From Laspinema sp. D2d (GTDB lineage: Bacteria > Cyanobacteriota > Cyanobacteriia > Cyanobacteriales > Laspinemataceae): DNA of 64,000 bases. Positions within the stretch are counted from its first letter, which is position 1, and each line of letters starts with the position of its first letter. The translations under genes were made by a program, and so were the position numbers. The stretch is from the NCBI RefSeq assembly GCF_025370755.1, contig NZ_JAMXFC010000001.1:186001-250000 (forward strand), given 5' to 3'. Below the pieces are notes generated by a model. It worked only from the letters and a program-made list of their open reading frames with translations, was not told the DNA's origin and did no database searches. This document shows, piece after piece, positions 33,044 through 34,542 of the stretch.

Positions 33044-33448
33044 AGTCAGGTTCCCTCTTCTTTCCTTTGATGACTGTAGTATCGCCTTTTGCTCAAAGCT
33101 TCTCAGTGACGAGTATTTCCTGATTTATGTGATGTTTCCTCCCCTGGGTAGTGAGGCGTTTTCCCGTTTTCAGGTGACGAAACCAAACTCGTGATGTGAT
33201 GCCGATCGCAACCCCATCCCTTGTTACCTTCCCATCGACCCAGATTTCTTCCTCCTTGGGGAGGGGATTGGCGGGGATCAAGGACACTCGCTGGGACGAG
33301 GCGATCGCCCCGCCCGCTTCTAGGTTCAGACCTGGAATCCATGAAAAATCAAGGATTTGTAGGCGATCGGCCCATCCCAGTAAAACTCTCTAAACCCGCA
33401 AAAAAGCAGACGAGTTGTCCCCAGTTCTGCTACAATTAGTTTAGTCTT
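33044..33448. other. Intergenic region before the split tRNA gene
   Basis: 405 bases. Should contain the tRNA promoter; a TACAAT box at 33431-33436 is a possible -10 element but its -35 partner is not convincing. A doubtful 64-codon frame on the minus strand (33093-33287) is listed separately. Confidence 0.4.
33093..33287 (-). CDS. Doubtful small ORF
   Basis: 64 codons starting with GTG. The product has a protein-like look in its second half (VWFRHLKTGKRLTTQG), but there is no ribosome site and the family is not recognised. It may be a pseudogene remnant or chance. Recorded only as a possibility. Confidence 0.25.
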   Translation of the reverse strand: MSLIPANPLPKEEEIWVDGKVTRDGVAIGITSRVWFRHLKTGKRLTTQGRKHHINQEILVTEKL

Positions 33449-33485
33449 GGGGCTGTGGCTCAGTTGGATAGAGCAAGCGCCTCCT

Positions 33486-34402
33486 GAAGCATCGGGCACC
33501 TTGGAGGAAACTCCAGGAGTGAATGTGGTCAAATTCAAGAAAGCCTAAGTCTGAATTCAGCTTTCCAATCAAAGCTAATGCACAGATAAGGTAATCTTGA
33601 GCCAAGCCTTTGAATGGCTAAACAACAGCAGACATCGGAAAGAATTAATGTTTGATCCGGTCCTCCTGTGATTCTAGCTGTCAAAGGAAGGTGCAGAGAC
33701 TGGTTTGAGAGAGCCATTAGAGATGGACTTTAATGTCGCATCCAAAGTAGAACAACGAGGCGTTTTAGTGGGGATGTTATTGGGTCAGGGAAAAAGAAAT
33801 CAAAACAATTTCTATATTTCCCATCGGGCCACCCAAGAGAATTACGTTTGGTTTAAAAAACAACTTCTCGAACAAATCACCCAACAGCCGGTTAGCATCC
33901 GACCTCGAACCACCAACCGGGGAGAGGAACTCCTTTGTTTAGAACCGAAGTTGATTCCCTTAACTCGGGTCTTGGTTAAGAAACTCTATTGCGGCGGGAT
34001 TAAAACCGTTACGGCTAAGTTTCTAAACCTCTTAACCCCCACTGGAATTGCTTTATGGTTTTTAGACCGAGGGTCCAAGTCCTTTAAAAAAAGGAATGGA
34101 AAAATTCACGCCCTAGAAGTGTATTTAAACAACACCTTCTCCGAAAGTGAAAATGAAATCATTATTGATTATTTTTCAGAAATTTGGGGATTTAAGTGGG
34201 GGCTGAGTAAAACCTCGGATGGTTATCGACTGAGAATGGGTACTCAAGAAGGAAAACGATTTCTCGCGTTCATCACCCCTTACGTTCCCGACAATCTACG
34301 CTATAAAGTACAAACCTCCTCAAACGTAACGGCCACCACCTACGGACCTCCAGTCTAAGGTGAAGGAATAGTCCAGAGAGTGAGGAAACTCACACAAATC
34401 TG
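33486..34402 (+). ncRNA. Group I intron in tRNA-Arg(CCU), ORF-containing
   Basis: 917 bases. Core signs: the 5' splice-site uridine (base 33485) forms a U-G pair in P1, where CCTGA and TCGGG pair around an AGCA loop; P2 follows with a GGAG-GAAA-CTCC tetraloop hairpin; the conserved AAGGTGCAGAGACT stretch (P7/P3 strand) lies at about 33687-33701; the partner AGTCC of P7 lies near 34371; P9 is GTGAG-GAAA-CTCAC just before the end; the last intron base is G (omega G, 34402). The small core and the GAAA loops in P2 and P9 resemble the IC3 subgroup of bacterial tRNA introns. The ORF sits between the P7 strands, in the P8 region. Confidence 0.88.
33723..34358 (+). CDS. Intron-encoded LAGLIDADG-family protein, probably nuclease-inactive
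   Basis: 211 residues from the ATG at 33723; a TTG six codons earlier lies inside the intron core and is less likely. The two-motif layout fits the LAGLIDADG_2 homing endonuclease family: motif 1 GVLVGMLLGQGK, then ISHRATQENY; motif 2 IALWFLDRGSK, then a FSESENEIIIDYFSEIWGFKW helix and a C-terminal strand-rich end. In active enzymes the residue before the final Gly of each motif is Asp (or Glu) and binds the metal. Here it is Gln in motif 1 and Arg in motif 2. Cleavage is therefore doubtful; a role in helping the intron splice (maturase) is an alternative. Located in P8 of the intron. Confidence 0.82.
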   Translation: MDFNVASKVEQRGVLVGMLLGQGKRNQNNFYISHRATQENYVWFKKQLLEQITQQPVSIRPRTTNRGEELLCLEPKLIPLTRVLVKKLYCGGIKTVTAKFLNLLTPTGIALWFLDRGSKSFKKRNGKIHALEVYLNNTFSESENEIIIDYFSEIWGFKWGLSKTSDGYRLRMGTQEGKRFLAFITPYVPDNLRYKVQTSSNVTATTYGPPV

Positions 34403-34542
34403 AAGCGCTAGGTCGCCGGTTCAAATCCGGCCAGTCCCGTTCTCTGTTAGTCTATAGTACGAAAACTTGCACCCGGTTCGTGGATCACGAACTCGGGTGG
34501 CTCGTTCGGTGACTACTGAATCAATAGTTGGTAACTTGAGAT

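Follow-up and report, generated by a model that had tools for sequence, protein, structure and literature searches.

A cyanobacterial tRNA-Arg(CCU) gene split by a group I intron that encodes a LAGLIDADG protein without catalytic aspartates, a probable maturase

A tRNA-Arg(CCU) gene of the cyanobacterium Laspinema sp. D2d is split in its anticodon loop by a 917-nt group I intron, and the intron carries an open reading frame (ORF) for a two-motif LAGLIDADG_2 protein. The gene lies in a 64,000-nucleotide stretch of contig NZ_JAMXFC010000001.1 (hereafter the window), which is part of a 6.6 Mb genome in 83 contigs. Both catalytic aspartates of the protein have been replaced, it is held under purifying selection and its tree agrees with the families of its hosts. 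We therefore consider it likely that a former homing endonuclease has been kept as a splicing helper (maturase) of its own intron.

A split tRNA-Arg(CCU) gene and its ribozyme core

Run without introns, ARAGORN found no tRNA gene anywhere in the window; once introns were allowed, it called a single gene, tRNA-Arg(cct), which spans 33448-34440 and includes 917 nt of intron. When joined, exons 33449-33485 and 34403-34439 give a canonical 74-nt tRNA-Arg(CCU) with a seven-base anticodon loop. The exon and intron coordinates of the original prediction, which had been made from this DNA alone, are exact, and its identification of a cyanobacterial tRNA-Arg(CCU) split by a group I intron after U36 is borne out by ARAGORN and Rfam. 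A splice site after U33 would let the guide pair with more anticodon-stem bases, yet the joined loop would then have four bases, and it was ruled out by inspection. As 33 split genes from other genomes share the identical insertion site, chance is excluded.

An Rfam tRNA search of the genome gave at least 62 matches (150 of 396 candidates scored), and ARAGORN, run over all 62 places, returned 67 entries, some of which were copies truncated at the end of a locus and one an artefact of zero length. The anticodon CCU is absent from all 67. The joined exons, used as a genome query, matched only the two halves of the gene, with one further match to tRNA-Met. Thus a second intact tRNA-Arg(CCU) gene, the observation that the original prediction had set against itself, was found in the genome by none of these routes (Rfam tRNA loci, ARAGORN, joined-exon search).

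At gathering cut-offs Rfam gave no match in the whole window. A permissive scan of 33400-34500 placed Intron_gpI (RF00028) at 33473-34395, complete over model positions 1-253, with 45.6 bits (E 3.6e-10), where the gathering score is 50; the score is probably reduced by the long ORF inserted in the intron. A covariance-model match between the exons, as had been expected, does exist, though below the gathering score. Inspection also bore out the elements listed in the original prediction: U36 pairs with G, the intron ends in G, P2 and P9 are capped by GAAA loops, and AAGGTGCAGAGACT is present. The window intron thus shows the P3-P7 pseudoknot, 5′ splice-site U-G pair and terminal G by which group I introns are recognised, and every listed core pair of P1, P2, P3, P4, P5, P7, P8 and P9 is a standard pair.

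The structure, of 47 pairs, was drawn from an alignment of 16 related introns without an ORF together with the standard group I map. Standard pairs fill 98.1% of its cells in these 16 introns, and both-sided changes occur in 18 of the 47 pairs, where shuffling gives 7.7 on average; none of 500 shuffles equalled the structure on any measure. Clear compensatory changes are seen in P4 and P3. The slide control favours this structure because it was read from the same sequences, and the two-sided changes are the stronger evidence. When the ORF is cut out of the ORF-bearing introns, the same helices are 92.6-100% paired in the 36 of 41 that could be compared (five failed the anchor pattern).

Moreover, the joined exons were searched in 59 genomes, mostly of the genus and family with some from other families of the order, a sample weighted to relatives that gives no estimate of prevalence. 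The gene is split in 34 of them (the window genome and 33 others confirmed by ARAGORN), always at the identical junction and by introns of 204-969 nt, and the joined exons were called tRNA-Arg(CCU) in all 34. By BLAST it is unbroken in 23 (seven confirmed by ARAGORN), and the remaining two received neither call. The ORF is full length in 15 of the split genes, frame-shifted in three and missing from 16. Within the host's own family every genome (14/14) has the intron with an ORF, two of these ORFs being frame-shifted. The original prediction had called the intron worth documenting and possibly of lateral origin. Rarity does not fit with 34 of 59 related genomes being split at the same site, 16 of them without an ORF, and a recent lateral origin is unsupported, given the intron in all 14 genomes of the family and a protein tree that follows host families.

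Four observations stand beside these. In one genome a 51-nt partial match to the joined exons (G066:C1:2026925-2026975, 98% identical) lies directly upstream of an intact intronless gene. The window genome holds two further group I introns above cut-off, of about 200-250 nt, on contigs C2 (L031) and C21 (L032); their hosts are a tRNA-Leu-like gene (UAA by inspection, called Ser by ARAGORN) and a tRNA-Met(CAU) gene. Locus L194 (genome G512) packs three matches to group I introns and one to a group II intron into 1.8 kb. A dense tRNA array on contig C21 of the window genome (78500-84000, L042) has 24 Rfam tRNA matches and includes unusual members, e.g. tRNA-Pro(AGG) and tRNA-Leu(AAG).

The intron protein and its catalytic positions

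The protein matches LAGLIDADG_2 (Pfam PF03161) with E 1.2e-36 and 126.6 bits, against a curated cut-off of 25, when scanned from 33705. Its closest named relatives (91-93% identical) are from Laspinema palackyanum, L. olomoucense, two Oscillatoria sp. and Phormidium pseudopriestleyi. Active LAGLIDADG enzymes carry an acid at the end of each motif, where the window protein has Gln22 and Arg116, a loss on which the original prediction is silent. In profile alignments position 22 aligns to the Asp of motif 1 (GD) in 6x1j and position 116 to the second Asp of the I-SceI stretch wfmDDG. Among solved homing endonucleases I-SceI is one of the nearest by profile (E 4.2e-6), with 6x1j nearer (1.7e-8); I-SceI differs in being an active nuclease with both aspartates, and its D145A mutant is reported to be completely defective in cleavage (PMC3928301). 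The AlphaFold model of the intron protein is weak, with a mean predicted local distance difference test (pLDDT) score of 61.7; VIA-align ranked I-SceI first by fold.

A search with the protein over 388 genomes of the order matched 48 at E 1e-15 or better. Loci were examined in 46 of these, leaving out G278, whose hit is a 620-aa frame (L075), and G643. By ARAGORN, 41 of the 46 lie in tRNA-Arg(CCU) introns, three in tRNA-Asn(GUU) introns and two in neither; these last two groups and three frame-shifted ORFs are excluded from the 38 full-length proteins compared here. There is no Asp or Glu at either catalytic position in 25 of the 38, one in 11, and both in two (L170, L179). Column 22 holds 13 different residues and has the highest entropy of all 206 columns, and column 116 comes 26th; when each of the 22 genera is represented by a single row, the two take ranks 2 and 28. 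The LLG preceding position 22 (including G21), D115 and G117 are invariant, and the residue following position 22 is Gly, Ala or Ser.

As controls we took 20 LAGLIDADG_2 matches outside tRNA introns, which have Asp at both positions in all 18 that could be scored (L079 and L083 could not); many are of dnaX type and related, hence not independent, and motif 1 was read by pattern in three. Three phage relatives also show Asp at both positions by inspection. The window genome itself has a second LAGLIDADG_2 frame with Asp/Asp (contig C17, about 92251-92826, L080), inside a dnaX-like frame (gene name by inspection) as in several relatives, and it is probably an intein. The three tRNA-Asn(GUU) genes (L191, L192 and L193, of genomes G455, G413 and G435) are each split by an 898-nt group I intron (RF00028 E about 1e-7) with a related LAGLIDADG_2 ORF. 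Their proteins, kept out of the control set, read Lys/Asp, Glu/Asp and Lys/Asp at the catalytic positions.

The ORF (33723..34358) lies inside the intron (33486..34402), as originally predicted, but not in P8. Alignment with introns lacking an ORF puts the insert after the 5′ strand of P7 and before the 3′ strand of P3, where the ORF occupies the loop of an extra, covarying helix that is P7.1-like. Among the 16 ORF-less introns the P7 5′ strand runs directly into the P3 3′ strand in seven, and a short hairpin intervenes in nine. The Rfam alignment placed the P3 3′ strand within the ORF, an apparent model-fitting error because ORF-less relatives put this strand beside P8. The 3′ end of the ORF overlaps the P3 3′ strand and P8, the stop codon falling within P8. 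Of 48 introns, a few of them visibly mis-anchored, 21 have U-A and 18 have G-C as the fourth pair of the P7.1-like helix; these 48 were scored out of 57 (six without an anchor, three without an insert). A second hairpin covers the start codon. In the nine of 38 ORFs that have AUA instead of AUG, a matching change has occurred on the opposite arm; as AUA is limited to host families f6 and f50, one or few events would account for it. Translation and ribozyme folding may thus compete, timed by the two hairpins.

Table 1. Features of the split tRNA-Arg(CCU) gene and its intron, in window positions.
Feature	Position	Strand	Basis or remark
5′ exon of tRNA-Arg(CCU), last base U36	33449..33485	+	ARAGORN with introns; junction identical in 33 other genomes
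Group I intron, 917 nt, terminal G	33486..34402	+	Rfam RF00028 E 3.6e-10; covariation of related ORF-less introns
Internal guide GGG, pairs with anticodon CCU (P1, U36-G)	33494..33496	+	Invariant in 16/16 ORF-less introns
P2 hairpin, GAAA loop	33497..33521	+	Inspection; ORF-less alignment
P3 5′ strand GUGGUC	33525..33530	+	Covaries with 34331-34336
P7 5′ strand GACU	33698..33701	+	Rfam match; ORF-less alignment
P7.1-like helix, 5′ arm GUUUGAG	33703..33709	+	Pairs with 34319-34325; covaries among relatives
Hairpin over start codon (GAUGGAC..GUC.CAUC)	33722..33742	+	AUG/CAUC in 27/38, AUA/UAUC in 9/38 ORFs, 2 not alignable
LAGLIDADG_2 ORF, 211 aa from ATG; frame also open from TTG 33705	33723..34358	+	Pfam PF03161
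Codon 22, Gln in place of first catalytic Asp	33786..33788	+	Profile and protein alignments
Codon 116, Arg in place of second catalytic Asp (I-SceI D145)	34068..34070	+	Profile and protein alignments
P7.1-like helix, 3′ arm CUCAAAC, within ORF	34319..34325	+	Pairs with 5′ arm; covaries
P3 3′ strand GGCCAC, within ORF	34331..34336	+	Inspection; ORF-less alignment
P8, holding ORF stop codon 34356-34358	34337..34362	+	Inspection; ORF-less alignment
P7 3′ strand AGUC	34370..34373	+	Inspection; ORF-less alignment
P9 hairpin, GAAA loop	34380..34393	+	Inspection; ORF-less alignment
3′ exon of tRNA-Arg(CCU), first base A37	34403..34439	+	ARAGORN; junction identical in 33 other genomes

Selection, descent and the role of the protein

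Eight members of the genus all carry Gln/Arg at the two positions. Their 28 pairs give a ratio of non-synonymous to synonymous substitution rates (dN/dS) of 0.08-0.37 (mean 0.19), and the pooled ratio of uncorrected proportions (pN/pS) is 0.204, with a 95% codon-bootstrap interval of 0.131-0.303. The loss of the residues is older than these sampled members, and therefore selection acted on a protein that was already without them. For 16 chosen pairs dN/dS lies at 0.07-0.34, and in 14 of these each partner is missing one acid or both. The uncorrected pN/pS of the f14 and f1 genera (0.41 and 0.36) is saturated and was left unused. In a neutral simulation a copy remains stop-free in about 1% of runs at a divergence of 0.2 and in 6% at 0.1. 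Every full-length protein from the host's own family (12, in 5 genera) and from family f14 (10) lacks both acids and has an open frame.

In a protein tree of 43 rows, the ten host-family labels need nine changes, which is the minimum, and f14, f50 and f6 do not each form one side of a branch. On the same tree, presence or absence of an acid requires at least four changes at motif 1 and at least four at motif 2. No relatives were found in plasmids, nor in viral contigs scanned with two peptide patterns only.

Taken together, mostly vertical inheritance, the missing nuclease residues, selection and location inside one intron make a maturase the best explanation. Retention under purifying selection without nuclease residues supports membership of the group I maturase class and does not suffice for it. 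That nucleases may escape loss by turning into maturases is a route described in reviews (PMC3943268, PMC3984707). Under such a scheme the intron, judging from its structure, would excise itself through two transesterifications started by guanosine. The LAGLIDADG_2 protein would descend from a homing endonuclease that lost both catalytic aspartates, and with them presumably the cleavage of DNA, and would have been retained, largely by vertical descent, owing to a further function, most likely that of binding the RNA of its own intron and aiding its folding and splicing. The cell would thereby depend on the protein for mature tRNA-Arg(CCU), from the sole such gene found in the genome.

Several points weigh against a maturase. 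The 16 introns at the same site without an ORF keep their core, therefore the protein is not always needed, and the ORF-bearing introns (36 of 41 compared) have no clear fault in the core that calls for a helper. With one acid in 11 of 38 proteins and both in two, some may still cut or nick DNA. The tree is modestly supported (stars on 15 of 40 inner branches; 65/76 for the own family), and the AlphaFold model is weak. Moreover, three of 41 ORFs are frame-shifted (L127, L128, L131), all in the same A-run of 9 or 10 A. Compared with its sister L178, L127 has 11.5 synonymous (Sd) and 4.5 non-synonymous (Nd) differences before the shift, and past it Sd 2 and Nd 6, that is, no excess of silent changes. 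The introns of L127 and L128 are identical and therefore count as one observation. In L131 the second part is still open and, compared with distant relatives, its dN/dS is low (0.06-0.07 for finite dS). Slippage in the A-run might restore the frame; genomes G395 and G418 yielded no further copy of the protein.

These frame shifts, one of them without sign of constraint past the shift, are what ordinary decay of a homing endonuclease would produce, in which no function is left and the catalytic residues go first and the frame next. The absence of the ORF from 16 of 34 introns, nine of which have a short P7.1 stub that is perhaps a remnant, points the same way, and loss of catalytic residues is treated as degeneration in a 2026 survey of the LAGLIDADG proteins of group II introns (PMC13190283). 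However, dN/dS averages 0.19 in a genus whose eight members already lack both acids, and the proteins without both acids in the host's own family (12/12, 5 genera) and in f14 (10/10) are still open. Column 22 is the most variable while the residues preceding it are invariant, unlike general decay. We thus regard decay as unlikely.

Somewhat less probable still is that the protein was kept as a DNA- or RNA-binding regulator, e.g. one that represses the tRNA gene or its own translation, and not as a splicing helper. Such a role would ask for the same retention, but 41 of the 46 loci lie in tRNA-Arg(CCU) introns and no pointer to a second target was found. We think it very unlikely that the protein remains a DNA-cutting or nicking enzyme in which other residues stand in for the aspartates, and that the intron is mobile. 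The proteins with one or both acids and the invariant D115, neighbour of the catalytic position, would fit with an active nuclease, but the single change D145A kills I-SceI (PMC3928301) and the window protein has both Gln and Arg. Against mobility, the protein tree follows host families, the two-pattern scan of viral contigs and the plasmids gave no relatives, and those in phages are less than 60% identical. That the gene is a dead tRNA copy without spliced product we can almost dismiss: in every split gene (34/34) the joined exons are read as tRNA-Arg(CCU), the core helices are 92.6-100% paired, and the searches of the genome yielded no other CCU tRNA.

A maturase thus remains our preferred reading for the window protein. 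It is about evenly balanced whether a whole subfamily of bacterial tRNA-intron proteins has been converted from homing endonucleases to dedicated maturases, with nuclease residues freed from selection several times, vertical descent across several cyanobacterial families, and translation tied to ribozyme folding by the start-codon hairpin and the coding overlap of P7.1, P3 and P8.

Known tRNA introns and wider meaning

Group I introns in tRNA-Arg(CCU) are known from alphaproteobacteria, and the tRNA-Ile(CAU) gene of Azoarcus also contains one. The intron described here shares with both a group I ribozyme in the anticodon loop, and differs from known tRNA group I introns in residing in tRNA-Arg(CCU) of cyanobacteria with an ORF in a P7.1-like helix. 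A resemblance to tRNA-Leu introns may place it in subgroup IC3. LAGLIDADG maturases are familiar from fungal mitochondria (bI3, bI4, I-AniI); there the hosts are organellar and the splicing role has been tested. The Synechocystis tRNA-fMet intron likewise encodes a protein within a cyanobacterial tRNA group I intron, I-Ssp6803I, but this is a PD-(D/E)XK nuclease and not a LAGLIDADG protein; in the part of a 2007 table that was consulted, the sole protein of a bacterial tRNA intron is such a PD-(D/E)XK enzyme (PMC1995217). In Thermotoga neapolitana a bacterial group I intron also encodes a LAGLIDADG protein, and one with maturase-like activity (PMC3984707), though its host is the 23S rRNA of a hyperthermophile. 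The plant plastid splicing factor OTP51, with two LAGLIDADG motifs, is a further case of such a protein used in splicing (PMC8393795); it differs in being a nucleus-encoded fusion with pentatricopeptide repeats (PPR) that acts on a group II intron.

A 2014 review names only two families of cyanobacterial tRNA introns, fMet and Leu (PMC4033280), and we found no report of a cyanobacterial tRNA-Arg(CCU) group I intron in the part of the open-licence literature that was searched, outside which most subscription papers lie. As far as this literature shows, it would be a third family. 'Group I introns' of 22-49 nt have been reported in tRNA-Arg(ACG), tRNA-Gly and tRNA-Lys (PMC5733544), which in our view are too short for a group I ribozyme. 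The split gene was missed by the default tRNA (ARAGORN) and Rfam scans. Such genes may have been overlooked because tRNAscan-SE 2.0 is, by its own paper, not designed for the detection of group I introns (PMC8450103).

The tRNA-Arg(CCU) site offers related introns that have no ORF, or proteins with both, one or no acids. Intron-borne nucleases are expected to decay once all alleles are occupied, unless another use is gained, a prediction that is open to test here within a single gene at a single site. Should the proteins be maturases, they would form a natural series from a selfish DNA cutter to a splicing factor that the cell needs for one of its tRNAs.
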